In this document: positions 4,354 to 36,971 of the stretch, one piece after another
Position numbering within the stretch: the first letter of the stretch is position 1
How the letters are laid out: the number at the start of each line of letters is the position of its first letter
NCBI RefSeq assembly: GCF_013284035.1
Contig: NZ_CP054141.1
Span: 186,001-250,000 of the forward strand
Direction: 5' to 3'
From: Flavobacterium sp. M31R6
GTDB taxonomy: Bacteria > Bacteroidota > Bacteroidia > Flavobacteriales > Flavobacteriaceae
DNA length: 64,000 nt
Made by a program: the position numbers and the translations under genes
The notes under the pieces: model-generated
What the model saw: the letters and a program-made list of their open reading frames with translations, nothing else
Database searches by the model: none
What the model was told of the DNA's origin: nothing

Positions 4354-4427
4354 GGTCCTATAGCTCAGCTGGTTAGAGCACCTGACTCATAATCAGGTGG
4401 TCCCTGGTTCGAGCCCAGGTGGGACCA
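4354..4427 (+). tRNA. tRNA with anticodon CAT (elongator Met or Ile2)
   Basis: The 74-base cloverleaf folds fully. The acceptor stem is GGTCCTA/TGGGACC with discriminator A, the D arm is GCTC/GAGC, and the anticodon stem CCTGA/TCAGG frames the loop CTCATAA. The T arm is CCTGG-TTCGAGC-CCAGG. The CAT anticodon could mean elongator methionine or the lysidine-modified Ile2 tRNA, which I cannot separate by eye. It is not the initiator type, because the first acceptor pair is matched. CCA is not encoded. The segment from 4386 onward is repeated at 36929-36971, so this gene is the integration site of the element and remains complete. Confidence 0.95.
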
Positions 4428-4428
4428 C
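4386..4428 (+). repeat. Left attachment site (attL) of the integrated element
   Basis: These 43 bases, from the anticodon loop through the 3' end of the tRNA plus one base, are identical to 36929-36971. The base before the repeat and the base after it differ between the two copies, which sets the limits. Integration restored the tRNA gene on the left side. Confidence 0.93.
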
Positions 4429-10209: not shown

Positions 10210-11667
10210 TTAAATAGTATAAAACGCACTTTCTCCAGTTTGCCTTTCTGTTTCATTATAAAAGCTTTCCGTTTCTAAACGATAGGCAGCTTGATTTTTA
10301 ATATGTCCTTCATAACCTACATATTTTAATATTAGGATTGACACTAACATGTGAATTCTGTCAGCTTCCAAGTGCAGATCTTTAATCCTATTTTTTAAAA
10401 CACCTTCCTCATATGGGGTTTTGCCATGAAAAAATAAGTTTCGAGTATTTAACAAAACACTATACTTTTCCGGTAGGTTGACTTTATAACGCTCAAAAGC
10501 AAGAATAAATTTATCTTTATTAAAAGGTGTATTTAAATAAGTGATTTTTTTTGTTAAGGATGAGTATTCCAATTGTGAAAATTTATCCTTTTCTCGGTTT
10601 GCAATATCATGGAATTCCTTCAAGATTGGAGTTAATTGTTCAGTTTTTTTAATAGGTTTAAAAAAAGCTTTATTTTCCGAGTGAATTAGTGATACAGCGG
10701 TTTCAAGAGCTACACTAAAAATAGAACATCGGATTAACGGAGATTTTATTTCATTTCCGTCCACCAGTAATTCAATTGCTCTTTCAAGTTCCGGTTTTGA
10801 TTTTAACTCATTAACAATGGTAGATAAAATCTTTTCGGAAAACAATAAAGGTGTTAGTTCTGGGTAATTACTAGGATCAGTATGGATGAAACTTCTAAAC
10901 TGTTGAGGGTTTATTATTTCAAAATTTGTAATAACAGAATCGCCAAATAATTTATAGTAGATATACTTAGCAAGTTTAAAATCGTTTGATGTATACGAGA
11001 AAAAGTAATGCTCGTCCTGATGCCAGTTGCCAGTCAAAAAGCCAACTGATTTTAAAATCAATTCACAGTCTTCTCTAAAGCTTTTAAAATTTGTCACATC
11101 CAAGCACTCGATTGTCAAATAAGTTTTGCTATTTGATCTTTCGTTATGTCTAAAAACATGGTATTCAATATTTTCAATATTAAGGCGAACAAGCCCTAAA
11201 GCATAGTGTGTCCCATCACAAGAATAACCTGCTCCGAGAAATATTGTTCCAAAATCTTCGTCATTAATTTTCAAGATTAAACGAAAATTTGATGCAGATG
11301 ATAAAGGAAATTGTTCATCATAAATAGTGGTTATTTCTCCTGTTATTTGATTTGTAGGGACAAATCTTTTTCCTTTAACTTTTGTGACACCTTTGGGCGG
11401 AATTACAAAAATTCTATCAGTTGAAATAAGTTTACAATTTTTATTAAAACCCAGTTTTTTAAAGGTTATGTTATTTGGGTCTAAACTATTTTGTAATTCT
11501 AAGTTAAAGTCAATATGTTTGTTTCCAGTTCCTTTAGACAAACTAATTTTAGCCTCATTAATTGGAAAACCTAAATCGTGGGAGATAATAAATGACTCCT
11601 TTTGAAATATTTTTTCAATTATTTCAGTTTCGCTTTGAATACTTTTTGTGTATTTTTCTTCTATCAC
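10210..11667 (-). CDS. HEPN-domain protein, probable anti-phage ribonuclease
   Basis: I do not recognise the full architecture of this 485-residue protein. Its C-terminal third is helical and carries NTRNLFFHGKTP, an R-x4-H motif (R409, H414) of active HEPN ribonucleases. The N-terminal 230 residues are mostly beta-strand and may sense the trigger, which recalls the ApeA-type layout of a sensor followed by HEPN. It lies 27 bases after the PD-(D/E)XK gene in the same leftward unit, below an XRE-type regulator gene. It converges with the relaxase gene. Expected action is RNA cleavage and growth arrest during infection; this is inferred from the motif and the neighbourhood. Confidence 0.7.
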   Translation of the reverse strand: MIEEKYTKSIQSETEIIEKIFQKESFIISHDLGFPINEAKISLSKGTGNKHIDFNLELQNSLDPNNITFKKLGFNKNCKLISTDRIFVIPPKGVTKVKGKRFVPTNQITGEITTIYDEQFPLSSASNFRLILKINDEDFGTIFLGAGYSCDGTHYALGLVRLNIENIEYHVFRHNERSNSKTYLTIECLDVTNFKSFREDCELILKSVGFLTGNWHQDEHYFFSYTSNDFKLAKYIYYKLFGDSVITNFEIINPQQFRSFIHTDPSNYPELTPLLFSEKILSTIVNELKSKPELERAIELLVDGNEIKSPLIRCSIFSVALETAVSLIHSENKAFFKPIKKTEQLTPILKEFHDIANREKDKFSQLEYSSLTKKITYLNTPFNKDKFILAFERYKVNLPEKYSVLLNTRNLFFHGKTPYEEGVLKNRIKDLHLEADRIHMLVSILILKYVGYEGHIKNQAAYRLETESFYNETERQTGESAFYTI

Positions 11668-11694
11668 ATTATAGCTGTTAAGTGAATATAAATA

Positions 11695-13434
11695 TTAGTC
11701 TTCCAACCATTTAATATCTTTAATTCGATTTGGAATTAAACCGTCTTTAATCTGCACGGCAAGTGCATAATTGAATGTTCTCAGGAAATTGTAACCTTTA
11801 TGATTTGCCTTGTTTGTATAGTCTGACATACTAAGATATAATTCTAATAAGCCAAAAAAATCAATCTTCTTGTCTTTTAAACTTTGTTCCATTTCCTGTA
11901 AATCACTAATATTTATAATGATTAGATCTTTAATATTATGTTCTTTAGTTTTTTTATTAATTTTTTGCTTTTCAAGGAGTTCATTAAATTTTCGCTTTAA
12001 CACAAATGGAACAATACCAGAACTAACTATCGGATCATTAACAATAATTATTGGATAAATTTGAACTTTCCGTTGATAGTTAAAGTGTAAGTCGTCAATT
12101 TCTGATTTATAAATGTGAAACTTCTTTAAAGTTTTTTCAGCCAATTGGGATAAGCCATAATCTTTATTGAATTTTTCAGTATCGAGGTTTTTGAAGTCTT
12201 CAATGGTAGCAACAGTCTTGTAGCCATGATCTAGTGGGATGAAACCACTTTTTACTTCGAATAGTGCCACGTTCTGCTTTTCTCGGATATAAAAATCTGC
12301 ATATTCTATTTCTGTTCCTTCAATATTAAATTGGAGCTGATTGGTTGATTTTAATATTATGTCTGGGCGAGTTGAAAACGATTCTTTTAAAATATCCTCA
12401 GTGAATGGCTCATAGAAATCAGTTCCAATAAAATTTCCCCAATCTTTCCTTGTGCAGACCTCATTAGGTTTTAAATAATCGAACCAAAAATCATTGATAA
12501 ATATTGAATATGTCTTTTCAATGTAGAAGCCTTCATCGTACATTATATAACTAACTATATCTTTATTTTCCTTTATTTTACATTTAAACAAAGGACTCTT
12601 TTTTAGCGGGAAAAAATCAAAAGTACGTAGGTCATCCTTAGTAGGTATTGGATACTCAACTTTTGTGCTAAATGAATCAAGGATTTTTATGGCATCAACG
12701 TTATCTTTGGGAATGTTAATGTAACGCATCCCTAAAACTTCATCATAACTTTTAATGAACGTCCAGATAATATGTTTTAAAAATTCTTTTGTACTTTCAA
12801 CTTTATAGAACCAGGTTATAAAGTTTTTGAAATGTTTTCCAAATAAATGATGCTGTTCAATTTTATTGAACAAAAAATATGATTTATAAAAGATATTTAT
12901 CGCATTCGAGCATTCGTTATATTGATTGTGGTGCAATTCTCTAAACATAAAGAATTCAAAGAAATCTGTTCCAAGTTGCTTGTAACCTTCCTCTCTATAA
13001 TTTTTATCTCCAGTTAAAATTTGTTCGTTTGCAATTAGTAAAAATTTAAAAATTCGTTCCCTATTATCAAAGTTATATTCAGGTTCTTCAGAGGTGAAAC
13101 CTTCATTATTAATAATTTCCTGCATTGCGTAAAGACAAGTTACCCGTGAAAATAAATTATGGTTTTTAGGTGTGAGTGAGTATCTATTAATTAAAGTTCT
13201 ACAAAAAGATAAATGTACAGGATTATTTTTGTCTAAAAAAATAGTTTTCAAGCATTCTATTTGCGTTTCTCTTGAATCATCAAAATGGTTAGAATCTGGA
13301 CGTTTTAATCTAGTATTGATAGCAACTAAAGTTGCAATAAGTTCCTCTTTAGGAATGTCAAGGATTAGATCAATTGGATTTTCAGGAATCGGATTTGCAT
13401 AAAAATCAGAATATTTAATTAGATAACCCCACAT
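11695..13434 (-). CDS. PD-(D/E)XK nuclease-like protein of unknown family
   Basis: The 579-residue protein is unfamiliar over its first 350 residues, which are helical and may form a repeat or sensor domain. Residues about 355-500 fit a restriction-endonuclease-like fold. EYADFYIREK gives D380, and the next strand, ALFEVKSGF, gives E393-x-K395, the classic D...E-x-K nuclease core. A long helix with conserved Gln/Lys follows. It could cut DNA or be a degenerate scaffold. It shares a leftward unit with the HEPN gene (27-base gap). The start ATG at 13432-13434 follows a palindromic terminator that separates it from the XRE gene upstream. Confidence 0.6.
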   Translation of the reverse strand: MWGYLIKYSDFYANPIPENPIDLILDIPKEELIATLVAINTRLKRPDSNHFDDSRETQIECLKTIFLDKNNPVHLSFCRTLINRYSLTPKNHNLFSRVTCLYAMQEIINNEGFTSEEPEYNFDNRERIFKFLLIANEQILTGDKNYREEGYKQLGTDFFEFFMFRELHHNQYNECSNAINIFYKSYFLFNKIEQHHLFGKHFKNFITWFYKVESTKEFLKHIIWTFIKSYDEVLGMRYINIPKDNVDAIKILDSFSTKVEYPIPTKDDLRTFDFFPLKKSPLFKCKIKENKDIVSYIMYDEGFYIEKTYSIFINDFWFDYLKPNEVCTRKDWGNFIGTDFYEPFTEDILKESFSTRPDIILKSTNQLQFNIEGTEIEYADFYIREKQNVALFEVKSGFIPLDHGYKTVATIEDFKNLDTEKFNKDYGLSQLAEKTLKKFHIYKSEIDDLHFNYQRKVQIYPIIIVNDPIVSSGIVPFVLKRKFNELLEKQKINKKTKEHNIKDLIIINISDLQEMEQSLKDKKIDFFGLLELYLSMSDYTNKANHKGYNFLRTFNYALAVQIKDGLIPNRIKDIKWLED

Positions 13435-17010: not shown

Positions 17011-20000
17011 ATGTCATTATTCCAAAAATCTGTTGTTCTAAAACATTTACAATCCCAAAATAAAACTGTTTTACAGGAGAAATGGCAACAGTTCCAAAAT
17101 CATTTCCACAATCTGACCATTCAGGAAAATATCCGCAACAGCAAGGAAGAACAATATCAGGGAGAATTCCTGATAGACTTGTTTGTGGCTATTTTGGGTT
17201 ATACCAAAAATCCACAGCCGGATTTCAATCTGACTACAGAATACAAAAACGTAAAAGACAGCAAAAAAGCCGACGGTGCGATTGTAATCAATCAAAAGGT
17301 AACTGCCGTAATTGAGTTGAAAGGTACCAACACAACCGATTTAGGAAAAATAGAAACTCAGGCTTTCGGTTACAAAAACAACCAACCGGATTGTGTGTAT
17401 GTTATTACATCCAATTTTGAAAAACTTCGTTTTTATATAGACAATGCCATTGAGCATTTAGAATTCAACCTTTTCAAGCTCACGCAGGAAGAATTCAATT
17501 TGTTGTATTTGTGCTTGGCTCATGAAAACATTTCCAAAGACATTGCCCGAAAAATCAAAAACGAATCGGTAAGTCAGGAAGATGTCATAACCAAAAAACT
17601 GTACAAAGATTACTCGCTTTTCAAAAGGGAATTATACCAGAATATGGTGGCTTTGAATCCCGAGTATGAACCGCTGGAATTGTTCAAAAAGTCACAGAAA
17701 TTATTGGATCGTTTCTTGTTTGTTTTCTTTGCCGAAGACAGAAACCTATTGCCGACCAACCTAATTTTCCGAATCAATAAAGAATGGAAACAATTGCGTG
17801 AAATGCGTATTGAAGTTTCGTTGTACGACCGTTACAAAATCTATTTCAACGATTTGAATTCTGGTGCCAAGGTATCTTTGCCGGCTTTTAGCGAAACCGT
17901 TGCGATGGTGAAGGAAGAACACCAGATTTTTGCCTACAACGGCGGTTTGTTCAAACCAGACGAAATGCTAGACAACATTCGCATTGACGATGTTGTATTG
18001 TTTTCCCACACCGAAAAACTGAGCCATTACGATTTTGCCAGTGAAGTCGATGTAAATATTTTGGGACATATTTTCGAAAATTCCCTGAATGAGCTCGATG
18101 AAACCAAAGCGCAACTCGAAGGTCAGGAAATTGACAAAACCAAAACCAAACGCAAGAAAGACGGGGTTTTTTATACTCCCAAATACATTACCAAATACAT
18201 AGTAGAAAATACCATTGGCAAACTTTGCATCGAAAAGAAAACCGAATTACAGCTGGTGGAGGAAGACTACACCACCGACAAAAAACGCCAAAAGAAAACA
18301 ATGCAGGGATTGGTGGCCAAGTTGGAAGACTATCGTAAATGGTTATTGCAACTTACCATTTGTGACCCTGCTTGTGGTTCTGGTGCGTTCTTGAACCAGG
18401 CATTGGATTTCCTGATTGAAGAACACCGCTATGTAGATGAATTGCAGGCCAAACTCTTTGGCGACGCTTTGGTATTGAGCGACATTGAAACCAGCATTTT
18501 GGAAAACAACCTTTTTGGGGTGGATCTCAATGACGAAAGTGTGGAAATTGCCAAACTCTCACTTTGGTTACGCACCGCACAGCCCAACCGAAAGCTGAAC
18601 GATCTGAACAGCAATATTAAATGTGGTAACTCGCTGATTGACGATCCCGAAGTGGCTGGTGACAAAGCCTTTAATTGGCAGGAAGCTTTCCCACAGGTGT
18701 TTACTAAAGGAGGTTTTGATGTGATTATTGGGAATCCGCCTTATGTTCAACTCCAAAGCATGGGTAAAATAAGTGATGTACTCAAAAATTGCGGTTATGA
18801 AACCTACGATAAGGGAGGAGACCTTTATTGTATTTTTACTGAACGTGGTTACACTTTACTAAAAATGGGCGGTATACAATCATTCATTATGCCGAACAAA
18901 TGGATGTTAGTAGCTTACGGAAAACCACTGCGAAAATTCCTTTCAAAAACAGGTTTACGTCAAGTACTTAATTTTGGAGATATTCAATTTTTCCAAGAAG
19001 CGACTACTTATGTATGCATTTTCGTTACGCAAAAAAGCAAACAACAAGAAGAAGTCAAAGTCTTGTCACTCAATAATAAAACTTATAAAAGCGATTTTCT
19101 AACAGAGATTAAAAGCAATATTTACAACTATCCTTCCTCTAAATTTGATGAAGCTGAGTGGAGCATTCAACCTTATAATGATGCACTGAAGTTAGAGCAG
19201 ATGAAATTGAATGGAATATCTTTAAAAGATTTACCAATTTCAATCTACAGGGGGATACTTACAGGATATAATGATGCTTTTTATATAGATGAGGAAACTA
19301 GGCAGAGACTTATAACTACAGATGCAAAAAGTGCCGAACTCATTAATCCAATGGCGCGTGGACGAGATATTTCTGCATATTCCATTACAGATCACGAATA
19401 TTTGATAGGAACATTTCCTGCTCTAAAACTGGAAATTGAAAGTTATCCAGTCATTAAAGAACATTTGCTTTCATTTGGGTATGACCGGTTGAAACAAACT
19501 GGAGACAAAGGAGCACGTAAAAAGACAGGAGGAAATTGGTTTGAAACTCAGGATAGCATTAAGTATCATAAAGAATTTGCAAAACCAAAAATAATCTATC
19601 CAAATATGACTTCTGTTTTCCCTTTCATGTACGATGAAAGTGGAATGTTAGCAAATCAGAAGTGTTTTATTCTAACAGCACAAGATGATTCTATTTCATT
19701 ACAGTTTCTCACTGCTGTTTTTAATTCTTCCTTAGCCAAACTTTGGATCTGGTATAAATGTCCTGAACTTCAAGGAGGAACACGTGAAATTAGTAAAGTT
19801 TATTTCGAACATTTTCCAGTTCCTAGTGCAAACATGGAGCAGACTTCTATACTTGCAAAATATTCCGCAGAGCGCACCCAATTAACTGTCGTATCGCGTG
19901 AAGTTGTCGAAAAATTCCAACGAACCATTCTAAGAAAATTTGAAATAACAGATTTACCCAAAAAATTACAGGATTGGTATTTATTGGCTTATGCCGAATT

Positions 20001-20199
20001 CATAAAAGAATTAGCCAAAAAGAAAATAAAACTATCCCTTTCCGAAGAAGCAGAATGGGAAGACTATTTCAATCAGGAAAGTAAAAAAGCACTTGACTTG
20101 AAAAATCAAATCGATACAACCGACAAGGAAATTGATAAAATGGTTTATGAGTTATATGGGTTGAGTGAGGAGGAGATATTAATAATTGAAGAAAAATGA
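17011..20199 (+). CDS. Type IIG restriction-modification enzyme (Eco57I-like)
   Basis: This 1062-residue protein joins an endonuclease, an adenine methyltransferase and a target-recognition domain in one chain. The N-terminal PD-(D/E)XK nuclease has ADGAIV (D88) and AVIELKG (E102, K104). The methyltransferase has the SAM-binding motif CDPACGSGAF (C451-F460) and the catalytic motif FDVIIGNPPYV (N575-Y578). The C-terminal part from about residue 700 is a TaqI/Eco57I-type specificity region. It should methylate one strand of its site and cut unmodified DNA. The stop codon overlaps the start of a membrane-protein gene by 4 bases (ATGA). Composition changes near codon 570-600, from GC-rich to AT-rich, hinting at an exchanged specificity region. 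Confidence 0.92.
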   Translation: MSLFQKSVVLKHLQSQNKTVLQEKWQQFQNHFHNLTIQENIRNSKEEQYQGEFLIDLFVAILGYTKNPQPDFNLTTEYKNVKDSKKADGAIVINQKVTAVIELKGTNTTDLGKIETQAFGYKNNQPDCVYVITSNFEKLRFYIDNAIEHLEFNLFKLTQEEFNLLYLCLAHENISKDIARKIKNESVSQEDVITKKLYKDYSLFKRELYQNMVALNPEYEPLELFKKSQKLLDRFLFVFFAEDRNLLPTNLIFRINKEWKQLREMRIEVSLYDRYKIYFNDLNSGAKVSLPAFSETVAMVKEEHQIFAYNGGLFKPDEMLDNIRIDDVVLFSHTEKLSHYDFASEVDVNILGHIFENSLNELDETKAQLEGQEIDKTKTKRKKDGVFYTPKYITKYIVENTIGKLCIEKKTELQLVEEDYTTDKKRQKKTMQGLVAKLEDYRKWLLQLTICDPACGSGAFLNQALDFLIEEHRYVDELQAKLFGDALVLSDIETSILENNLFGVDLNDESVEIAKLSLWLRTAQPNRKLNDLNSNIKCGNSLIDDPEVAGDKAFNWQEAFPQVFTKGGFDVIIGNPPYVQLQSMGKISDVLKNCGYETYDKGGDLYCIFTERGYTLLKMGGIQSFIMPNKWMLVAYGKPLRKFLSKTGLRQVLNFGDIQFFQEATTYVCIFVTQKSKQQEEVKVLSLNNKTYKSDFLTEIKSNIYNYPSSKFDEAEWSIQPYNDALKLEQMKLNGISLKDLPISIYRGILTGYNDAFYIDEETRQRLITTDAKSAELINPMARGRDISAYSITDHEYLIGTFPALKLEIESYPVIKEHLLSFGYDRLKQTGDKGARKKTGGNWFETQDSIKYHKEFAKPKIIYPNMTSVFPFMYDESGMLANQKCFILTAQDDSISLQFLTAVFNSSLAKLWIWYKCPELQGGTREISKVYFEHFPVPSANMEQTSILAKYSAERTQLTVVSREVVEKFQRTILRKFEITDLPKKLQDWYLLAYAEFIKELAKKKIKLSLSEEAEWEDYFNQESKKALDLKNQIDTTDKEIDKMVYELYGLSEEEILIIEEK

Positions 20200-21992
20200 G
20201 TAAAGTATTAAATTATAAATATATCATTTATCCTTTTGTTGCAATTTTTTTAGGATGCCTTGCTTTTTGGTATTCCCCTCCATTTGTTCCTGATTGTTTT
20301 AAAATTGAATCCTATGGGAAAAGATATGAACTTTTTAATCTGATTATTGGTTCGCTTGTTTCTATTATGGGGATTTATATTACAGTTTCTCTAGTGGCTT
20401 ATGAATTTTTTAAACAAAAATCTGGGGTAGATTTTAATAAATCTTTTTTGATAAATTCATTAAGTGCATATTATATAAGTTTTTCAGTATTAACAATAAT
20501 TGTGGCATTTTTATCTAGCATAATAGTTCCTATAGACAATCTATCAGCTAATGAAATTTCGATAATTTATTTTAATATATTCCTTTTTGTTTTAATTATA
20601 TCCTTTCTGATTCCAGTTGCATTTAATTTGTTTTCATCATTGAAACCTGAAAAGTTAGCTTCCGAAGAAATTGATAAAATCGATTCTAAGTCAATTTTTA
20701 TAAGCAATAATGGAATTAGCGATATAGATAAATCGGCAGAAATATTTGAAAATGACCATTTGATAAAAGTAACTAATATTGTAATTGCATTGATCAGTGT
20801 TTCAGAAAGTATAAAAGCACAATTAATTATCAGAAAAACTACCAGTAAATTATCAAATCTGATTATAGACGGAAAGAATCCGAAAGACAAAGAATATATA
20901 ATTGAACGATTAATAACTTTCTATATTAAAATCATTGATTTTGCTCTACTTCAACCAAATAATGCTGGGATATTAAGGTGTATTTGGAACTCAATTGAAA
21001 GTATGTATTTTGATTTAATTAAAAAAAAAGAGACTTCATTTCATTATGAGAAATTTAGAGAAAAATTCTTTGAAAGATATATTAGTAGGCTTTTCACTCA
21101 TAACAAAGAGGAAGAAATTATAGAGGGTATAGAAACTGTTAAAAATATTATACAAAATCAGTTAATATCTAATATGTCTGAGGATAAAGAAATACTTCAT
21201 TTGTATGGTTTTATCAATGATTTTGAACCTGATTTTAAGAATTTGGATGATTATTCGGATGCAAATATCGAAGACTCTAAACATTGGGATGAAATAACAC
21301 ACAATACCCTTGATTTATTTTCCATTATTATAAACAAATCTATTGCATTTAAAAACCTTGATTTACTAAATAAATGCTTTGAAAAACTAGATGAGTTGAG
21401 CTTTCAAATTTATCTTAATGAAATAGGAAAATACAAATCAGCTTTTCTTCATATTAAAATAGCAACAATAATTTCTGATTATGCTTGCCGTGCTTTTCAA
21501 AAGAATGTTTTTGAAGAAGGAAGTGATGCTAAAAGAATATTGCCTATTCATCTTGAAATGCTTATTAAAAGTGAAGTAGTTTCAGCAAGAATGGTTTTGC
21601 AGAAATATTGCTATTTGCTAATTTATCTACAAAAGCTAAATAAATTGGATAGATGGTTTTTAGGTGGTATTAAAATGAATGATTTTATGGTGTCGGAAGG
21701 TGACTTAGGACATATTGCAAGAAGATGTGCTTATACTTATAATCAAAATAAAATCACGCAAAGTTGCTTAGATGATTGCATAGAGACTTATATTATTTTG
21801 AAAGAATATTATGAATCTCATAAAAATGATAATTTTGATTTATATATGGTTTTAAAAGATAGATTAAGTTCTATTTTAGGAATTTTGTTGGACTGTAATG
21901 TTGAAAATGAAAGTCTAATTGAAAGATTAAAGACTCAGATAGAAAGTTTTACACCGAAAGAAGATTATTTTTTGGAAAAATTAAGTATTTAG
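20196..21992 (+). CDS. Four-helix membrane protein coupled to the type IIG enzyme
   Basis: I do not recognise the family. Four membrane helices fill the first 146 residues (about 10-27, 45-70, 90-112 and 122-146). The remaining 450 residues are soluble and predicted mainly helical, with no obvious catalytic motif. The start codon lies inside the stop of the restriction gene (ATGA), so translation should be coupled and the two products made in a set ratio. A plausible role is a membrane effector or anchor that acts with the restriction enzyme, but this is inference. Its DNA is much poorer in GC than the first half of the restriction gene, so it may have a separate origin. Confidence 0.65.
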   Translation: MSKVLNYKYIIYPFVAIFLGCLAFWYSPPFVPDCFKIESYGKRYELFNLIIGSLVSIMGIYITVSLVAYEFFKQKSGVDFNKSFLINSLSAYYISFSVLTIIVAFLSSIIVPIDNLSANEISIIYFNIFLFVLIISFLIPVAFNLFSSLKPEKLASEEIDKIDSKSIFISNNGISDIDKSAEIFENDHLIKVTNIVIALISVSESIKAQLIIRKTTSKLSNLIIDGKNPKDKEYIIERLITFYIKIIDFALLQPNNAGILRCIWNSIESMYFDLIKKKETSFHYEKFREKFFERYISRLFTHNKEEEIIEGIETVKNIIQNQLISNMSEDKEILHLYGFINDFEPDFKNLDDYSDANIEDSKHWDEITHNTLDLFSIIINKSIAFKNLDLLNKCFEKLDELSFQIYLNEIGKYKSAFLHIKIATIISDYACRAFQKNVFEEGSDAKRILPIHLEMLIKSEVVSARMVLQKYCYLLIYLQKLNKLDRWFLGGIKMNDFMVSEGDLGHIARRCAYTYNQNKITQSCLDDCIETYIILKEYYESHKNDNFDLYMVLKDRLSSILGILLDCNVENESLIERLKTQIESFTPKEDYFLEKLSI

Positions 21993-22003
21993 GTATATCG
22001 GAA

Positions 22004-22052
22004 ATGGAAAATTTAAAAATTAGTAGAACGATTAAACTTATCGTATGAATGC
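22004..22052 (+). pseudogene. 5' fragment of an AlbA_2-type gene
   Basis: These 49 bases match the first 51 bases of the AlbA_2/RecG-like gene at 27572-27622, apart from a 2-base deletion and a couple of changes. The deletion breaks the frame. This is the broken start of a second copy or a relative of that gene. Homology ends abruptly at about 22052. Confidence 0.85.
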
Positions 22053-22089: not shown

Positions 22090-22240
22090 TTACTAAACAA
22101 TTATAACGATGTTCAAGCAACTCTCGAAAATACCGAAAGGGAAGAATAATTATTAAAAACGGAACTTACAAAGAATCGACTGGTTTATAAGTTGTATAGT
22201 TTAGGTCAAGAGGAGATTAAAATTGTAGAGAATAGTTAAT
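22090..22240 (+). pseudogene. 3' remnant of a type IIG restriction gene
   Basis: Read in one frame, this stretch ends LVYKLYSLGQEEIKIVENS and a stop, which parallels the intact enzyme's end MVYELYGLSEEEILIIEEK (20142-20196). An in-frame TAA near 22150 and the lack of an upstream frame show that it is dead. It lies directly after the AlbA_2 gene fragment. The two pieces look like the scar of a deletion that joined the head of one defence gene to the tail of another. Confidence 0.75.
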
Positions 22241-22296: not shown

Positions 22297-23628
22297 ATGA
22301 AACATTTTTTTTACAAAGGAAGTCAAGACACACTATTAAAGGAGTCAGATTTTGAAAAAATAAAGGAGAATATTAAAAAAGATTTATCTAAAATACTGGA
22401 TACTAGAAATCTTTCTTTTTTAATTGGTTCAGGCTGTTCATTAGGAAAGAATGGTATTCCAACGATGAAGCAATTAGCAGATAATCTCTTTGAACCTAAA
22501 GCTGATTTGAATGAAAATTTAAAAGATAAAGTTTTTGAAGCTAAACATATTGAGATTCTAGAAAAATTTAAAATCAATTATAAAAATGAGCCTTTTAGAT
22601 CAAATCTGGAGACTTTTTTGGGAACATTGTACAGTTATAGGTTTTATTTAGAGAAACTCCAAGAAGCAGAGGAAATGGCTTTCGATACGGATTTAAAGGA
22701 TTTAAATTTGATAATAGAAAGAACCAAGGACTATATCTTATATGAATGTTTAAACGAAAAAAACAAAGGTAATGATGGTAATATTGTTGATGTATATCAG
22801 CAGTTTTACAGAAAACTTTCCTTAAGGGATAGTAATTTGCAGAAACCAAATGTCTTTACAACTAATTACGACTTGTTTTCGGAACGTGCGATGGACAATC
22901 TAGGGATTTCGTACACCAATGGGTTTTCCGGGTTTGTGGAACGTTTCTTTAATCCTTCGATTTTTAATTATGCCCTTGCTGAACAAATGGACATTAGTTC
23001 GCTAAAATGGAGTGTTATTGATAGCTTCATTTATTTGTTCAAAATTCATGGATCGGTTAACTGGGTCGAAAAGGAAAGTAATAATAAGCTTTTTAGTATT
23101 CAAGAACTTCAAGATGTAAACTACGCCAAGCTTAAAACCGAAGCAAATTATATGATCTATCCATCGCCACTAAAACAAAATGCCAGTTTAGGATCACCCT
23201 ATGCTGATTTATTTAGAGAATTTCAAAAAAGGATCACACAAAAGCAAAGTACATTGGTAACTATGGGATTTAGTTTCGGTGATGAGCATATTAATAATAT
23301 TATCTACCAAGCATTAACTATACCATCCTTTAGACTGGTAATATTTTCAGACATAGGAAATCATGTTGACGGTAAATATGAAGCTAGTCGAAAAAATATT
23401 GAAAAGCTAAAGGACTTAAATGATCCTAGAATATGGATAATTGGTACAGATGCCGAATATGATGGTCTATTGCAGGAAGGAAAAATAATAGAGAAGGATC
23501 ATAAAGAATTACATTTTTTTGACACGATTGCAAATGACTTGTTTCCTGACTTTACACAAGATGATATTGATGAAGCCAATAAAAAGCTAATAGAATTAAT
23601 CAGGACTAAAGGAAAGGGAAATGATTAA
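22297..23628 (+). CDS. SIR2-family NADase, partner of HerA (Nezha-type)
   Basis: The 443-residue protein has a SIR2-like NAD-binding fold: FLIGSGCSLG near residues 39-48, FTTNYDLFSE with N190, and FKIHGSVNW with H251, the Asn/His pair used for NAD hydrolysis. VTMGFSFGDEHINNII is the typical late SIR2 helix. The stop overlaps the start of the HerA-like gene by 8 bases. SIR2-HerA pairs form a large complex that senses phage and depletes NAD+, ending in abortive infection. The intact Asn and His suggest an active enzyme. Confidence 0.9.
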   Translation: MKHFFYKGSQDTLLKESDFEKIKENIKKDLSKILDTRNLSFLIGSGCSLGKNGIPTMKQLADNLFEPKADLNENLKDKVFEAKHIEILEKFKINYKNEPFRSNLETFLGTLYSYRFYLEKLQEAEEMAFDTDLKDLNLIIERTKDYILYECLNEKNKGNDGNIVDVYQQFYRKLSLRDSNLQKPNVFTTNYDLFSERAMDNLGISYTNGFSGFVERFFNPSIFNYALAEQMDISSLKWSVIDSFIYLFKIHGSVNWVEKESNNKLFSIQELQDVNYAKLKTEANYMIYPSPLKQNASLGSPYADLFREFQKRITQKQSTLVTMGFSFGDEHINNIIYQALTIPSFRLVIFSDIGNHVDGKYEASRKNIEKLKDLNDPRIWIIGTDAEYDGLLQEGKIIEKDHKELHFFDTIANDLFPDFTQDDIDEANKKLIELIRTKGKGND

Positions 23629-25540
23629 AGATGACAAACAAAGAGTAATTGGAAAACTAATCAGTATAAATTCCGATAAGTTCACCGTTGAGTTATTGAA
23701 TCAATCAATAAATTTTACCATAAATGGATTTGAGGATATTTATCAGTATGCTCAGATCAACGGATATGTGGTATTACCTTATCAAGATTTTTACATTATT
23801 GCTGAAATTTTTGGAGTTAGAGAACGAGATTCCGATATAAAATGGCAAGGAGAAAAAGAGCAAATTCTCAACAAATCCAATTCAGTTAAATATCTCGATA
23901 TAAACCCTATTGGAACTATTCAAAAAAGGAAATTCAGATATGGGGTGTCTATATTTCCAACTTTATATACAGATGTTTTGTATATCAAAAAAGAAGAATT
24001 AGATACTATTTTTGAATACAATGACGATTCTATAAAAATAGAAGAAAACAAAGATTCTACTAAATTAAAACTACTAGAAATAGGGACTTCAACGATATTT
24101 CCTGATTATAAAGTAAAAATAAATATCAATGATTTTTTTGGTGCACATTCCTCAGTTTTAGGAAATACCGGAAGTGGAAAATCATGTACCATTTCGTCTA
24201 TGATTCAAACTCTTTTTCAAAAAGATAATTATAGTGCTGTGGGTGCATCGTTCCTGTTTTTTGATGTAAATGGAGAATATCACAGAGCCTTCAGTCAGTT
24301 AAATAACAGTGATATTGATGTGAAATATTTTTCCATTAATGGAACAAGAAATGATGAATCATTCGAATACATGAATGAAATAAAAAGAACTATTGAATAT
24401 GAAAATTTCAAATTACCACATTGGTTCCTGAATATCGATGAATGGGCGTTACTTTTGCAAGCTACTGAAAAAACCCAGTTACCAATTTTGAGAAGTGCTT
24501 TAGGCTTTTCACAAAATATGGATGACATTTCGAAAAATCATTTATATGCAAGCAATATTATGTATGTTTTTGAAAATTGGGATTCGCCAGTTGCAAAAAG
24601 ACAACGGATAGGTTCTCTTGTTGAAAAGGCAGGATTTACAGATGTTGACATGTCAAAATACGACGCTCGATTTGGAAATTTTCCTCCAGGTGAAGAGGAA
24701 AAATTCAAACAAGCCGTAAACAATCATATTAATATTGATGAATTTATTTTTCCAAAATTTAATTACGAAAAATTTGATTTTGGTTCGCTAGGTGAACATT
24801 TGGACGAGGCCCTATTATATGAAGAGTATCATGGTAATAAGCAAATTAGAGACTATTGTTCAAGTCTAATTACACGATATAAAAGTTTAAGTGAAAGGGA
24901 AGAATTCAATTTTTTAACTCAAAACAAAAATGAAATCGGCAAAGAAATCTTTTTAGACAATTTATTAGGATTGAAGGATAAAAAAAAGAAAACCCAAATT
25001 ACAATTATAGATTTAAACTCAGTCGAAGATGAAGTTGTTGAGGTTGTTTCTTGCGTCATTACTAGATTAATTTTTGAAAGACTTAAAACGATCCCTAAAA
25101 GAAATTCCTTCCCAGTCAATTTGGTTTTAGAAGAAGCACATCGTTATATTTCCGAACATAAAAATTCTCACTTTGGAGAAGCTAACAAAATTTTTGAAAG
25201 AGTTGCTAAAGAAGGAAGAAAATATGGTTTGTTCTTAATGGTTTCTTCTCAAAGACCAAGTGAGTTATCAAAAACTGTTTTGTCTCAATGCAGTAATTTC
25301 ATCGTGCATAGAATTCAAAATCCAGATGATTTGAACCACATAAGGCAAATGACACCACATATTTCAGCCAATATTTTATATCGTTTACCATCAATTCCTA
25401 CTCAACATGCATTGGTGTTTGGTAGTTCTGTTCAAATACCAACTCTTTTTAAAGTAAATGATGCTAATCCATTGCCAAATAGTGCAAATAGTGATATTAT
25501 TAAACACTGGTTTATACCTAAAAATAATTTTGTAGAATGA
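23621..25540 (+). CDS. HerA-like hexameric ATPase, partner of SIR2
   Basis: The 639-residue protein is a HerA/DUF87 FtsK-fold ATPase. Residues about 1-110 match the beta-barrel HAS-type N-terminus. The Walker A motif GNTGSGKS is at residues 181-188, and the Walker B strand LVLEEAH is at 501-507. MVSSQRPSELSKTVLSQC is the usual sensor and arginine-finger region. In SIR2-HerA systems the ATPase ring assembles with the SIR2 subunits and controls their NADase or nuclease activity. It overlaps the SIR2 gene by 8 bases, so the pair is one translational unit. Confidence 0.92.
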   Translation: MIKDDKQRVIGKLISINSDKFTVELLNQSINFTINGFEDIYQYAQINGYVVLPYQDFYIIAEIFGVRERDSDIKWQGEKEQILNKSNSVKYLDINPIGTIQKRKFRYGVSIFPTLYTDVLYIKKEELDTIFEYNDDSIKIEENKDSTKLKLLEIGTSTIFPDYKVKININDFFGAHSSVLGNTGSGKSCTISSMIQTLFQKDNYSAVGASFLFFDVNGEYHRAFSQLNNSDIDVKYFSINGTRNDESFEYMNEIKRTIEYENFKLPHWFLNIDEWALLLQATEKTQLPILRSALGFSQNMDDISKNHLYASNIMYVFENWDSPVAKRQRIGSLVEKAGFTDVDMSKYDARFGNFPPGEEEKFKQAVNNHINIDEFIFPKFNYEKFDFGSLGEHLDEALLYEEYHGNKQIRDYCSSLITRYKSLSEREEFNFLTQNKNEIGKEIFLDNLLGLKDKKKKTQITIIDLNSVEDEVVEVVSCVITRLIFERLKTIPKRNSFPVNLVLEEAHRYISEHKNSHFGEANKIFERVAKEGRKYGLFLMVSSQRPSELSKTVLSQCSNFIVHRIQNPDDLNHIRQMTPHISANILYRLPSIPTQHALVFGSSVQIPTLFKVNDANPLPNSANSDIIKHWFIPKNNFVE

Positions 25541-25609
25541 TTTATTACTTTAATTGAGATCATTAGAATTATAAAGAAAATCGATACAGTAAGTTTATAA
25601 TTGATTAAC

Positions 25610-27505
25610 ATGGAAAAAGAAAAAATTTTTGAATTAATCAGAAAAGAGGAAATCTTATTATTTGCAGGTGCAGGTTTGTCAAGGTATGCTGGATATCCTT
25701 CAGGCAAAGAATTGGCAGAACGAATGCATGCCGGATTAACACCAAGCGAGCAGGAGGAAATTGAGTTAACTTTTAATTTACTTCAAGTTACAGAAGATAT
25801 CTACAATATTAAAAACGGGAATAAAAACTACTTAATTAATATTTTAAAAAATGAGTTTCAAAAAGAACCTAATTCCACTGAAACTCATCAACTTTTGGCA
25901 AAAATTCCACAAATCAAAACGATTATAACTACTAATTACGATGATCTTTTTGAAAGAACAAACAAAAATCTGGAAGTGATTCGTAGAAGCTCTGATTATT
26001 CAATTGCTAATACCAAAAAACAAGAATTATTTAAAATACATGGTGACCTTACTGATACTAAAAATATTATTTTAACAAAGTCGGATTACAATAATTTTTT
26101 CATTGAAAACAAAGATGAAACAATTTTTTGGACGGCAGTCAAAGATAGGTTAGCTTCCAAACATATTTTATTCATTGGGTATGCTTTAGAAGATGAAAAC
26201 ATAAGGTTTATGTTTGAAAGAATATTGAGAGAATTAGGCGACGTGAGAAAAGAATTGTTTTTTGTAGCTCCATCAATTAATCTACCCACAAAGAAATTTT
26301 TAAATCGAAAAGGTATTAATTATATAGAAAGCTCTGGGGAAGACCTAATTAAAGAAATAGATGAAGATTTAAAATTAAATTATATTCCTGGACTAACTAA
26401 AGGGGATGGTTCTGCAGATACGGCATTTAATTATGGGTTATTAAATCAAATCGACTTTCAAATTAGCAAACGCAAAGATGCTTTACAAATTGGCAAATTT
26501 TCTTCACTACAAGGTTTAGGAAGATCGGAAATAAAATTTAATCTCGAATTACCAGACGACAAAAAGGATAAAATATTAGATGCACTCAATGGTAAAAATT
26601 TTGATGATGTCATATTGGATGCTGAAATCATCAAAGACTTTAGTCATTTTTTTAACGATATTCGGATTTCGAATAGAGACAATATTAAAAAATTATGGGT
26701 AAAAAAAGTTCCTCATATTCATGGTAATTTTGAATTTGTTTTTGAAGATGGGTTTGAAATGGACAATTATAAAATGGAGATTTTTATAATTAATCCTGAA
26801 GAAAACAAATCTCATATAAAAATTGTGTTTATTGATTTTACGGTAATTATTGAAATTATTTTTAATGACGACAATACGCAATATAAAATTAATATTCATC
26901 CAAACAAACTGATTTCTTCTGTAAAAAGTGGTTTAAACTTTTACAATATAATTTCAAGAATAGTTAATAATCAAACATTTAAACTCTTTAAAGAGAACAA
27001 ACTATTTTATGCCTATGACAATAGAATCCAATTTGAAGAAGATACTTTTGACGCCAAAACTCTTTTAGATTACTTTCAGAAATTAAAAAAAATTGAGCAA
27101 CATTTTAACGTGAAATTTTCTAATCTAGACTTTAATCAGATAAATGAAAAGATTGTGGAGAAAGTAATAGCATATATAGAAAATAGAGCTCTTATAGTTA
27201 AATTTGACGGATTAACTTTCGTAAATAAAAATAGAGATGAGATAAATAGTTTATTAGAAACATGTAAAGACAAAGGAGTTTTCCTAGCGTCGGAAAATAT
27301 TAAGTCGACTTATTCTTTACATGGTTTGGATTTTGAAACAGGTTATTTAAACCAAATTATTGTAGATGCTTTTATAGTGAATAGAGAAGATTTAATAAAA
27401 AACAATACGAATAAAGTTGAGTTAAAAAGTAGATCTGAATCTATGCAAATTCAATTTTGTGAAGAGAAAGACATGCTTTTAAATCAACATAATTCAGAGC
27501 AGTAA
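25610..27505 (+). CDS. Solo SIR2-domain protein with unfamiliar C-terminal region
   Basis: The 631-residue protein starts at the ATG at 25610; a TTG nine bases upstream is less likely. The N-terminal SIR2 domain (about residues 1-260) has LLFAGAGLSRYAGYP, ITTNYDDLF with N109, FKIHGDL with H144, and HILFIGYALEDENIRFM, so NAD hydrolysis is plausible. The other 370 residues are beta-rich in the middle and helical at the end, and I cannot assign them. That part could sense the trigger, as in DSR-type sirtuins. The gene lies 69 bases after herA and may share its transcript, but it is not needed for the SIR2-HerA pair. Confidence 0.85.
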   Translation: MEKEKIFELIRKEEILLFAGAGLSRYAGYPSGKELAERMHAGLTPSEQEEIELTFNLLQVTEDIYNIKNGNKNYLINILKNEFQKEPNSTETHQLLAKIPQIKTIITTNYDDLFERTNKNLEVIRRSSDYSIANTKKQELFKIHGDLTDTKNIILTKSDYNNFFIENKDETIFWTAVKDRLASKHILFIGYALEDENIRFMFERILRELGDVRKELFFVAPSINLPTKKFLNRKGINYIESSGEDLIKEIDEDLKLNYIPGLTKGDGSADTAFNYGLLNQIDFQISKRKDALQIGKFSSLQGLGRSEIKFNLELPDDKKDKILDALNGKNFDDVILDAEIIKDFSHFFNDIRISNRDNIKKLWVKKVPHIHGNFEFVFEDGFEMDNYKMEIFIINPEENKSHIKIVFIDFTVIIEIIFNDDNTQYKINIHPNKLISSVKSGLNFYNIISRIVNNQTFKLFKENKLFYAYDNRIQFEEDTFDAKTLLDYFQKLKKIEQHFNVKFSNLDFNQINEKIVEKVIAYIENRALIVKFDGLTFVNKNRDEINSLLETCKDKGVFLASENIKSTYSLHGLDFETGYLNQIIVDAFIVNREDLIKNNTNKVELKSRSESMQIQFCEEKDMLLNQHNSEQ

Positions 27506-27571
27506 ACTAATAAATGTTTTCATATAACATTTAATTAGGTTGATATAATTAATAGTTGACTAATATAACAA

Positions 27572-29437
27572 ATGGAAAACTTAAAAGAATTAGTAGAACG
27601 ATTAAACTTATCGGATGAATGCACCGATTTGGAAGCAAAACGAGCTTCCGAAATAGGTAAATCAGTGCTGGAAACCGTTTGTGCTTTTAGCAACGAACCA
27701 GGTCTTGGTGGTGGTTATTTGCTATTAGGGGTTGAAAGAGAAGATGAGGTTACAAGCTTGTTTCCAAGCTATATTGTTTCTGGAATCCCTCAAGAAAATC
27801 TTGATAAGATACAGGCCGATTTAGCCAATCAGTGTGCCGAAAACTTTAATATTCCTATTCGACCTCAAATCACAGTTGAAAAAACGACTGCAGATAAATA
27901 TGCGATTGTAGTTTTTGTTCCCGAACTAAGTCCGGAACAAAAACCGCTGTTTCTTAAACACAAAGGCTTGCCACAAGGAGCTTATCGACGTATTGGTTCT
28001 GCAGACCACAAATGCACTGAAGATGATTTGGTGATTTTTTACCAAGGAAACGAAACCTTGGATAAATCCATTATTAAAGATGCCGATTTGGATGATGTGT
28101 CGGAGGAAGCGATTTCCCTTTATAGACGATTCAGAAAAAATGTCAATCCTTCTGCGGAGGAACTTACCTATGATGATAATGATTTGTTGAAAGCGTTAAA
28201 CGCAATCCGAAAAAGCAACGGAATCTTTCAGGTTACCTATACCGGATTATTATGCTTTGGATCAAGAATGGCACTCCGTAGATTGTTGCCTATGGTAAGA
28301 GTCGATTACATTCGTGTAAGCACCAACAAATGGATTGAAGACGCAGACAAGCGTTTTGATGCAACGCTCGATATGAGAGGTTCCCTTTTGGAATTGGTGC
28401 AACGTATTATTTCAACAATTTCAGATGATTTACCCAAAGGTTTTGTACTAAACGACAATAACATTCAGGCCAAAAATATAGGGTTGCCAATGCGTGTTTT
28501 ACGTGAAGCCGTGGTGAATGCGCTAATCCATCGTTCATACAGAGAAAATAGCCCTATACAGATTATTCGATATCCAAACAGAATTGAGATTATAAATCCG
28601 GGGTTTTCATTAAAAACCGAAGACCAATTGGGCGAACCGGGTTCTGTAAATAGAAACCCTTTTATATCCGCAATTTTCCACGAAACCAACTTAGCTGAAA
28701 CCAAAGGAAGTGGTATTCGTACTATGAGAAGCTTGATGGAAAAAGTCGATATGATGCCTCCTACTTTTGAAAGCAGTAGAGAAAACAACACTTTTACGGT
28801 AAGGCTCTTATTGCACCACCTGCTAAATGAAGAAGATATTCATTGGTTAAATAGCTTCAGTAATTTCGATTTGAATGATAATCAAAAACGAATTTTGATT
28901 TTCGTTCGGGAAGTAAATGCAATCGATAATTCAACTGCCAGACAAATCAATGGTTCCGATATTCTTACGGCAAATGCCGATTTAAGAAAATTAAGGGAAT
29001 TGGATTTATTGAATCAAAAAGGCAAAAGTAAATTCACATATTACACCACTTCGGAACTTCTGAAATCCTATATTTCCAACGAAGAGGAAATCCTTAGTGC
29101 ACTACCTCTAGACCTTAGTGCACTACCTCCTGCTCTTAGTGCACTACCCCTCGAGGATGACATTCCTAGTGAATTAAAACAACTGATCGAATCATTAGGA
29201 AAAAGAACCAACGATAAGGAAAAAATAACAGATGTTATTCTGCGTTTATGTGCACATAAACCCATGAAAAGTAAAACAATAGCGCAAGTTTTGGGGAAAT
29301 CTGAAAAATATATTTTTAGGGAATTTTTAAAACTGTTATTAGATGAAAAAAAATTAAATTATACCATTCCAGATATGATTAATCATCCCAATCAGGCTTA
29401 TATAACAATTGTAAAAACAGACGAAAAAGCAGAATAA
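27572..29437 (+). CDS. AlbA_2/RecG-C-like ATP-binding DNA-binding protein
   Basis: Residues about 10-130 match the AlbA_2 (Schlafen-like) domain (ECTDLEAKRASEIGKSVLET and GGGYLLLGVERED). Residues about 230-400 carry the RecG C-terminal/HATPase-like signature (REAVVNALIHRSY, NRIEIINPGFSL, KGSGIRTM). A winged-helix region follows, then a three-fold seven-residue repeat near residues 507-525 (LSALP pattern), then a final winged helix. Such proteins are frequent in defence islands and as regulators; their biochemical role is unclear. The repeats are encoded by three palindromic TTAGTGCACTA boxes, and a fourth lies just after the stop. A broken copy of its 5' end lies at 22004. Confidence 0.85.
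   Translation: MENLKELVERLNLSDECTDLEAKRASEIGKSVLETVCAFSNEPGLGGGYLLLGVEREDEVTSLFPSYIVSGIPQENLDKIQADLANQCAENFNIPIRPQITVEKTTADKYAIVVFVPELSPEQKPLFLKHKGLPQGAYRRIGSADHKCTEDDLVIFYQGNETLDKSIIKDADLDDVSEEAISLYRRFRKNVNPSAEELTYDDNDLLKALNAIRKSNGIFQVTYTGLLCFGSRMALRRLLPMVRVDYIRVSTNKWIEDADKRFDATLDMRGSLLELVQRIISTISDDLPKGFVLNDNNIQAKNIGLPMRVLREAVVNALIHRSYRENSPIQIIRYPNRIEIINPGFSLKTEDQLGEPGSVNRNPFISAIFHETNLAETKGSGIRTMRSLMEKVDMMPPTFESSRENNTFTVRLLLHHLLNEEDIHWLNSFSNFDLNDNQKRILIFVREVNAIDNSTARQINGSDILTANADLRKLRELDLLNQKGKSKFTYYTTSELLKSYISNEEEILSALPLDLSALPPALSALPLEDDIPSELKQLIESLGKRTNDKEKITDVILRLCAHKPMKSKTIAQVLGKSEKYIFREFLKLLLDEKKLNYTIPDMINHPNQAYITIVKTDEKAE
29094..29148. repeat. Three 21-bp-spaced repeats with palindromic TAGTGCACTA cores
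   Basis: TTAGTGCACTACC begins at 29094, 29115 and 29136, exactly 21 bases apart, so each copy adds seven residues in frame. A fourth TTAGTGCACTA lies outside the gene at 29444-29454. An 18-base perfect palindrome with the same GTGCAC core (GTTTATGTG and its complement) lies at 29244-29261. All five GTGCAC sites fall within 356 bases. Confidence 0.85.
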
Positions 29438-29443
29438 GATAGC

Positions 29444-29454
29444 TTAGTGCACTA
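29444..29454. promoter_or_regulatory. Fourth TTAGTGCACTA box, non-coding
   Basis: This copy lies 6 bases after the stop codon of the AlbA_2 gene and so is not constrained by protein sequence. It could be a protein-binding site, perhaps for the AlbA_2 protein itself. The rest of the gap to 29680 holds only a small hairpin, ATGTCG/CGACAT at 29591-29608. Confidence 0.45.
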
Positions 29455-29679
29455 GTTAAAAGTATTTACTGCACAACAATACTTATTGAGAAAAGTTAGA
29501 AGCGATTTAGAGAATTGCTAACTAAATTTTTCGTGTGTGTTAAGTTTATATTTTCTGGGTGAAAGATAGTTTTTAGAATGAAGAGCAAAGATGTCGTACA
29601 TCCGACATTTTTAGAATATCTTTTAAACACATTCTTTGTGTAAGTATATAAACAAGTTTTCCAAAATTATAAAAAGAAT

Positions 29680-32600
29680 ATGAAAAGAAAGTTACTGCTA
29701 AAAATAAGAGAATGGCTCTTCTGTATCATTCATTTATTAACCAAGTGCTATAGAAAACTTAATGGGATTCATAAATTCGATAACAAGCAAGGTTTGCAAG
29801 ACTTTGCTCCTAAAAGACTTCGAGGAAATCAAGATAAATACAGCGAAAGTTTAAAGTATTCAATTGACAATCCAAATATCAAAAACGTTGCTCTGTCAGG
29901 TGCTTATGGTTCCGGAAAAAGCTCTATTATAAAGACTTTTGAATATAAATATTCTCACTATAAATGTTTGAATATTTCTTTAGCAACATTTGATGAGAAT
30001 GTGCCCAATAATAAAGAAATTGAATTTTGCATTCTAAAACAGTTGTTTTACAAAGTCGAACAAAATAAAATACCCGAATCACGATTTAAACGTATTGAAA
30101 ACCACAAATATATTGGTTGGAAGGCGTTTGCTTTTTTGTTATGGCTTACTTCTCTTGCGCATTTTTTAGAAATAGAATCTCTGAATAAAATTACTGAGCT
30201 ATTTAATGTGAATTATTATAGTAAGGTAGCAACAATATTTTATTTCTTTTATTTAATTGGTGGAATTGCATTTTTGCTGTATAAAATGATGGGATTTGTT
30301 TTGAATTTTAAATTGACAAAACTTAGTTTTCAGAGTGCAGAGATTGAAAATGCAGATACTAAAAAAAGTAAAGATTTTGAAAATGAAATAGATGAAATTT
30401 TGTATTTTTTTGAGAGGAATATTGTTGATATTGTGTTCTTAGAAGATTTGGATCGATTTGGAAATACGAGCATTTTTATCAAACTCCGTGAAATAAATTT
30501 TTTGATAAACAATTATGAACCTATAAAAAAGGACAGAAAAGTGACTTTTGTTTATGCTGTTCAAGATGACACTTTCAAAAAAGATGAAAGAACCAAATTC
30601 TTTGATTTTATTATTCCGGTAATCCCAGTTATAAATTACAGTAATTCTGGTACAGAATTATTAAACAAAATTGATATTAAAGAAGACAAGATTGAAAAGT
30701 CTTTTATAGACGAAGTGTCTCTTTATTTATCAGACAAAAGAACGTTGATTTCTATTGTCAACGAATATAAAATGTATAAAAAGATTATTGGTACAGATTT
30801 AGACAAAAGAAAACTTTTGGCTATGATGATTTATAAAAACATTGAACCTACCGACTTCGATAAACTAAACAATCAGGAAGGTTTTGTTTACAGTGCTTTT
30901 AATAAAACTCATCTTTTAATTAGGTCTTCAATTAACAAAATTGGCACTGATATAACTGCATTAGATGAAAAATTAAAAACCACAAATTATGAAGCTTTAA
31001 ATAATATAAAAGAACTTAGAAGTTTATATATACTTGAGTTTTATAAAAAGATACCGCAAAATCAAAACATTCTCTGCCTCTACATAAATGGCAAACAATG
31101 TCGCATAAACGATTTAATAGAAGACATAAACTTTGAACTATTCTTAAAAAGTTCAAATGTAGTTTATTATTACACTGGTGATTATGGTGGATTGCAGACC
31201 AACAATAGTAATATTTCTTTTAACCAATTAGAAGGTGAAATCGGCAACTATAATGAACGTTTAAAAACAGTTCAAAATAAACAATCTGAGCGTTTAAATG
31301 AAATAAAAACAGAATTAGATAAATTAAAAAAAGAAAAAGAAAATCTAAAATCAAAAAATTTATTTCAAATTTTAAAAACCGAAAATTCTAAAAATTATCT
31401 TTCGCATGTTTTAAAAAATAATTCCTTACAAAATCAAAACCTGGTCAATTATCTTTTGAGAAACGGTCACATTGATGAGAGTTATTTGCATTATATATCT
31501 CATTTCTATGCTGGAAGTATTAGTAAAAATGATCACGACTTTTTATTATGTTTTACTAATGGAACCGTTCAACCCTTTAGCCATAAATTAGACGAACTGG
31601 ATAATTTATTTTTAAAACTAAAAGATATTCCCGATTACTTTGATAGAATACAAATTTTAAATTATTCGCTTTTAGATTATTTAATCAAAAATAGGCGGGA
31701 AAAAACAAGTGATGAACTACGAAGAGTTTTAAAATTAATAATCATCAATACTCCTCATCAGTTCATTGATGATTATATTAATTACGGAGAAGAAAAAAAT
31801 ATAAAAGATTTTATAATCGGGCTAAATTCTCAATGGGAAATAAACAGAGAGTCAGGTTTTTGGTCCCAAATTTTACCTATATATACTCTTGAAAAACTGA
31901 AATTTTATCTGAATTTATTGTTTTCTTGTGCTGGCAACAAAAAGGTAAAAGAATTTATTAATCGATTTGATGTTGAGAAACAAATACCAATATTTTTATC
32001 GGAATTAGAAGATGTTGCTTATTTTGAGGATAATAAAATCAAATTAATTGAATTTATTTCTGCGGAAAATGTAAAGTTTGGAAATCTTAAAGAAATCTCT
32101 AATAAAGAAATCTCTGACTTCATTTATAATAATAGTTATTATCAGATAAATGAAAAAATGATTGAATTGATTATAAATCGATATGCGACAAATGCAATTG
32201 ATTTGGAATTGTTAAAAACAGCCAATTATACAACAATAAAAAATTCGGGTGCTACAAAATTAATTCAATATGTCAACTTAAATATTGAATTTTACATTAA
32301 AACGATTTTCTTAAAATTAGAAAACAATTGTAACGAATCTGAAGAAGTTATTATTGATTTACTGAATGATAATTATGAGGTTTTCGAACTAGAATTATTA
32401 ATTGAAATCATTAATAAAAATCAGACTCCAATACGAGATATTTCTAAAATTAATGAAGTCAACTTATGGACTGAATTATTGCAAGACGATAAAATTGCTG
32501 TTACTTGGGAAAACTTGTTGTATTACTATAAAGAGAAAAAAGAATATGATGTCACTTTAAACGATTATTTGAATAATGAAAAACATTATGATAAATTAAG

Positions 32601-33366: not shown

Positions 33367-33380
33367 ATGAAACCATATTT

Positions 33381-33407
33381 CCGAAGTCTCACGACTTCGG
33401 ATTTTTT
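33381..33407 (+). terminator. Strong intrinsic terminator after the YobI-like gene
   Basis: CCGAAGTC and GACTTCGG form a perfect 8-bp stem with a TCAC loop, followed by ATTTTTTT. It separates the NTPase gene from the Abi gene. Confidence 0.9.
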
Positions 33408-33590
33408 TGTTTTAACAAAACCATATTTTTTAAAGAGATACGAATAAGCTCTGACACTATGATATTGTTGATAAATACGATTAATTGTTAAAAAGTTTGC
33501 GTAATAATATGCTTCTGTATATATTTGTCCCAATCGTACCAGTAGCGCTTCCCGTAAGAACAGCCTTCTGGTCTTTTTTTTTATAACTAC

Positions 33591-36776: not shown

Positions 36777-36928
36777 TTTTAATATTTTTAAAAGTTCAAC
36801 ATACGTACAACAAATGCATACATATTGTGAAGTAGGATGAAACAAAAATATTTTTTAAAAATGATAAATAGCTATAATACAGTAGCTTTGAAGCTAAATG
36901 CAATTAAATACAAACAATAATAGTCTAT

Positions 36929-36971
36929 CTCATAATCAGGTGGTCCCTGGTTCGAGCCCAGGTGGGACCAC
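36929..36971 (+). repeat. Right attachment site (attR)
   Basis: This is an exact copy of 4386-4428: the anticodon loop to the 3' end of the tRNA plus one base, without the 5' half. The gap 36777-37368 holds this site, the adjacent terminator and otherwise nothing that I can name. Confidence 0.93.

Follow-up and report, generated by a model that had tools for sequence, protein, structure and literature searches.

Type IIG restriction–modification enzymes combine nuclease, methylase and specificity parts in one polypeptide. That defence genes can be embedded in restriction clusters is already known, as set out in the cited portions of two papers (PMC3506569, PMC11411939). The nuclease PrrC is held by the Hsd complex of the Type Ic enzyme PrrI, and the same portion of that work argues for a general coupling of effectors with restriction clusters (Makarova et al. 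2012, PMC3506569). TgvAB is embedded in a Type I cluster, according to the relevant part of a paper that also cites genes embedded in Hma clusters (PMC11411939).

The locus described here lies in the window, the 64,000-nucleotide stretch of Flavobacterium sp. M31R6 DNA that was analysed, and joins a Type IIG gene (IIG) to the gene of a 598-residue membrane protein, for whose family we use the label MEM. It resembles the PrrC–PrrI case in that a putative effector gene lies in a restriction–modification cluster, where a second line of defence has been proposed for when restriction fails (PMC3506569, portion cited), and differs from it in that the enzyme is Type IIG, the membrane family is uncharacterised and intact copies occur without an adjacent enzyme. 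With TgvAB, the Hma-embedded genes and the HEC models of PADLOC, as far as the cited portions describe them, it shares the arrangement of independent defence genes lodged in another system's operon; the difference is that IIG cargo is placed after the final codon of a one-gene system, on several clades of that gene, with copies of the 3′ end left behind. In the literature searched, including the part of PMC11184937 that deals with DUF2254, we found no description of a Type IIG head gene, of 3′-end exchange with end copies, or of the MEM family. We lean, with somewhat more confidence than doubt, towards a model in which the IIG gene heads a mobile defence operon with interchangeable 3′ cargo that includes MEM, a likely abortive-infection effector that would be co-expressed with the enzyme and would answer to a trigger of its own.

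The Type IIG gene, the membrane protein and their genomic setting

The head gene of the cassette (17011–20199, plus strand, ATG start) encodes 1062 amino acids. The PADLOC model PDLC03609 spans residues 1–1061 with 1056 bits, a Pfam scan finds Eco57I and TaqI_C domains, and the motifs DPACGSG and NPPY stand at residues 452 and 575; a D...E-x-K stretch at residues 83–104 can be read as a putative nuclease motif. By its full-length model match the gene belongs to the Type IIG class, with cleavage and methylation as predicted activities. It overlaps the MEM gene (20196–21992, plus strand, ATG start) by 4 bases, ATGA.

The AlphaFold model of MEM (mean pLDDT 87.5) has four long N-terminal helices, at residues 8–26, 43–76, 88–110 and 118–148, followed by repeated helices that fill the protein from residue 151 to the C terminus. 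Judged by hydrophobicity, the first four helices would span the membrane and leave both ends in the cytoplasm. The preliminary description of the locus, a Type IIG gene coupled through an ATGA overlap to a 598-residue four-helix membrane protein, agrees with the open reading frames, the profiles and the model, the membrane helices being predicted. Fold searches with the repeat tail returned general helical-repeat likeness only.

The window protein has no match in Pfam, PADLOC or NCBIfam. A protein search, which scored the 7997 candidates with the most words in common, gave at least 73 matches, the window protein itself among them. The names among the few displayed were hypothetical protein or DUF2254 domain-containing; a precomputed PF10011 label is attached to 8 of the 73 matches listed. 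Among 53 family members taken into an alignment, weak DUF2254 matches at E ≤ 0.1 occur in 31, the best at 1e-6, and in eight members that were inspected the match covers the membrane part, always with fewer than 28.8 bits and below the Pfam cut-off. The likeness to DUF2254 (PF10011) thus lies in the membrane part of MEM relatives, which aligns to profile positions of about 40–140, whereas the helical-repeat tail falls outside the alignment and the window protein is without a match. The window protein does not qualify as a DUF2254 member, with no match above the Pfam gathering cut-off. The two papers that name DUF2254 give no known function for it. A PADLOC scan of the 53 members yielded one weak match, to Csx1 (E 0.0037). 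Because MEM matches no PADLOC family, a defence role for it is argued by association. A distant relative of 612 amino acids with 23% identity (L095, 5198–7842) follows immediately after what by its sequence seems to be a helix-turn-helix regulator.

The cassette is likely to sit in an integrative element of about 32.5 kb inserted in tRNA-Met (4386–36971). Its ends are marked by a tRNA-Met end repeat of at least 43 bases (4386–4428 and 36929–36971); a tyrosine integrase is encoded near one end (35550–36845), and VapE-like, primase-like and DUF5712 proteins at the opposite end. Further defence-like genes occupy window positions 25601–34487 (a SIR2 protein near ThsA, Schlafen/AlbA, a YobI/Tmn-like NTPase and Abi_2). 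On the minus strand, 10210–13434 encodes proteins of 485 and 579 amino acids without a Pfam match above the cut-off, the first of which has a weak PADLOC match to AbiEi (E 0.005). The Flavo-1 RNA family has four matches in the window, at 3679, 47010, 53082 and 55658.

Genes behind Type IIG genes across Flavobacterium

In a survey of 299 Flavobacterium genomes, 36 held an IIG match at E ≤ 1e-60 and their neighbourhoods were fetched; 29 loci were analysed, after removal of those at contig ends, those with MEM and those of another IIG family. A readable neighbour, meaning a gene of at least 100 amino acids, was present on the 3′ side in 28/29 loci and on the 5′ side in 26/29. On the 3′ side, leaving out a GTG start at +2 in L058, the IIG stop is followed within 40 bases by the start of a same-strand gene in 15/29 loci and within 120 bases in 19/29, compared with 0/29 and 6/29 on the 5′ side (Fisher p 5e-6 at 40 bases). 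Across the fetched loci, a same-strand start no more than 40 bases from the previous stop is seen in 28/89 other neighbouring gene pairs, against which the excess on the 3′ side is not significant (Fisher p 0.074; a cruder count of the same comparison, with a background of 31/95, gives p 0.049). Close spacing alone is therefore weak evidence, since so many neighbouring pairs are equally tight, and we conclude from these counts that the IIG gene as a rule opens its operon and that its closeness to the next gene is ordinary. The earlier premise that Type IIG enzymes normally act alone does not hold for this family in Flavobacterium, given the 15 loci with a tightly placed follower.

PADLOC was run on 19 first 3′ genes and recognises 9 at E ≤ 1.3e-10: AriA/OLD-like (L047), PDC-S31 (L048), GmrSD-like (L054), SIR2 (L056, L057 and L071), dCTP deaminase (L066), PD-T7-4 (L069) and PDC-S06 (L072). 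One more, in L050, has a weak match only, and 9/19 are without a PADLOC match at E ≤ 1e-3; the first 3′ gene of L063 is transposase-like (Pfam scan only). Further defence genes can follow, as with PDC-S18 after the first 3′ genes of L074, and in L060 the genes after the first cargo read like SIR2 and HerA, by reading of the neighbourhood. In a control with nine same-strand 5′ neighbours, two matched PADLOC at E ≤ 1.3e-10 and four at E ≤ 1e-3, to be set against 9/19 and 10/19 for first 3′ genes. Known defence genes thus occur in the place behind the IIG gene, with an excess over the 5′ side not established. The genes on the 5′ side include a WYL-domain protein (L052, 1587–2594) and AbiEii (L057, 690–1517).

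Probable exchange of cargo and relics of IIG ends

In a tree built from the N-terminal parts of 29 IIG enzymes, the window falls in a group of 17, and L002 and L005 fall together in one of 12, each group supported 100/100. Between the window and L002 these N-terminal parts are 63% identical and the MEM proteins 80% identical, so the two genes differ in history. Enzymes whose N-terminal parts are 95–97% identical carry three different cargos (L060, L067 and L073), and two at 97% identity carry two different cargos (L057 and L071). Over the final 57 coding bases the IIG genes of the window and L002 agree at 54 positions, more than in any other of the 378 pairs compared (median 44); in 18-base bins the two genes match at 15–17 of 18 positions throughout the last 90 bases (20110–20199, plus strand) and at 7–11 of 18 further upstream. 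Such a match is what one would expect if MEM had moved along with the IIG 3′ end and the crossover had fallen within that conserved stretch. We infer that homologous recombination in this conserved 3′ end drives the exchange of cargo.

Between MEM and the following SIR2 gene the window has 304 bases, and two relics lie inside them. One is what remains of a different IIG gene's 3′ end, running through to the stop codon (22175–22239, plus strand; nhmmer E 2.5e-8), with up to 84% identity to other IIG ends. The other (22002–22052, plus strand) duplicates the beginning of the Schlafen-like gene (27570–27622) with 92% identity and is stranded behind MEM as the probable leftover of another rearrangement. 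SIR2 (22297–23628) and HerA (23621–25540), both on the plus strand and recognised by profiles, are 86% and 72% identical to those of L056. This anti-phage pair adjoins MEM in the window and stands behind the IIG gene in L056, where SIR2 is the next gene and starts 62 bases behind; it is a separate module, outside MEM. Because an IIG-end relic precedes SIR2 in the window and L056 has this arrangement, the pair was probably once the cargo of an IIG gene that is now lost. In L048 a second IIG end follows the first cargo gene and precedes further genes (6093–6182, numbered along its IIG strand; E 1e-17, 88% identity to the IIG end of L049), and in L002 a decayed end lies behind MEM in the expected place (E 0.32).

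The varied genes that the IIG gene heads, the differing histories, the alike 3′ ends and the relics together lead us to the cassette with swappable cargo. A more far-reaching version would make the last 60–90 IIG bases a general docking site for swapped defence cargo, with end copies left behind, and would have MEM kill or arrest the cell via the membrane. We advance it tentatively, as a possibility for which confidence falls short of even. Against the cassette reading stands the small number of relics: clear ends were seen in only two loci (the window and L048), with the decayed one in a third (L002).

MEM with and without an adjacent enzyme

The context of MEM was compared at seven loci: the window, five from one genome-contig scan, and L044 (genome G1083) from a genus search, in which 5/398 Flavobacterium genomes had a MEM match (the window, G1083, L002, L003 and L005, each counted once). 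The preliminary description had called for a search for other genomes in which MEM follows Eco57I-like genes, and the arrangement was indeed found: in four of the seven loci (the window, L002, L005 and L004) MEM lies directly behind a IIG gene on the same strand, each time with the ATGA overlap, so that it recurs behind a restriction gene in independent genomes, with phage protection as a putative function. The MEM copy of L005 is broken. L004 is from Pedobacter segetis, and its enzyme matches another IIG model (PDLC03612, 833 bits), with 27% identity to the window enzyme in local stretches and 44–45% to L077 and L078; the MEM-linked enzymes thus fall in two IIG families. Intact MEM without an adjacent IIG gene is present in L003 (F. 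fluvii) and L044, and a broken copy without one in L006. In F. fluvii a search for an IIG of the window family turned up nothing closer than distant methylases (best E 2e-18); the genome G1083 has an IIG-like match of the other family (E 7.5e-76) about 700 kb from MEM.

The exact 4-base overlap found in 4/4 IIG-linked MEM copies occurs in 1/70 background same-strand neighbour pairs of IIG loci and is absent from the other IIG loci listed, those without MEM; one ancestral junction may be common to the four copies. The C-terminal codon before the stop also sets the MEM-carrying enzymes apart, being always K-TGA, where most other IIGs have S or N. Both features, the first across two IIG families, count in favour of a dedicated two-gene system, in which the enzyme, or its inhibition by a phage, would control MEM, and MEM would kill or arrest the cell if restriction fails; PrrC, held by the Type Ic enzyme PrrI, offers a precedent (PMC3506569, portion cited). 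We nevertheless judge such a system unlikely, because intact MEM stands without an adjacent enzyme in L003 and L044, F. fluvii is without the IIG family of the window, the histories of the two genes differ, and some enzymes of the family have a different gene, or no gene, behind them. The intact copies in L003 and L044 with no enzyme beside them also speak against MEM as a dedicated PrrC-like effector. Of the functional pair first suggested for this locus, what stands is a recurrent association in one arrangement; its dedicated character is not supported.

Least probable of the explanations, and in our view an unlikely one, is that MEM is an ordinary DUF2254-like passenger without a defence role, picked up by a mobile island and transcribed by read-through from the IIG promoter: MEM has no PADLOC family, its relatives are weakly DUF2254-like, its solo copies lie among genes that read like housekeeping genes and the PADLOC control on the 5′ side leaves no clear 3′ excess of defence genes, but MEM recurs behind IIG in 4/7 loci, its patchy distribution (5/398 genomes) is unlike that of a housekeeping gene, and it shares its position with known defence genes elsewhere. 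The membrane effector of the preliminary description is plausible for the last of these reasons, known defence genes occupying the same place in other genomes.

In the model of interchangeable cargo that we favour, the enzyme would restrict unmodified DNA and MEM, probably produced from the same message, would act as a second line. Co-expression is suggested by the overlap, which leaves no spacer between the genes, and a promoter inside the IIG gene is possible. The trigger of MEM is probably its own, because MEM occurs together with IIGs of several clades and also where no enzyme is adjacent. The cytoplasmic helical-repeat tail may sense an infection signal, after which the membrane part would disturb or damage the membrane, a scheme drawn wholly from the anatomy of the protein and its neighbourhood.

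If this model is true, uncharacterised defence genes could be picked out by their place right after the stop codon of an IIG gene, and single-gene Type IIG systems, being easily spotted by profile, would be usable markers. It would also offer defence islands a simple way to gain and trade cargo, one that could be recognised by repeated IIG 3′ ends, with the MEM family as a concrete candidate for testing.
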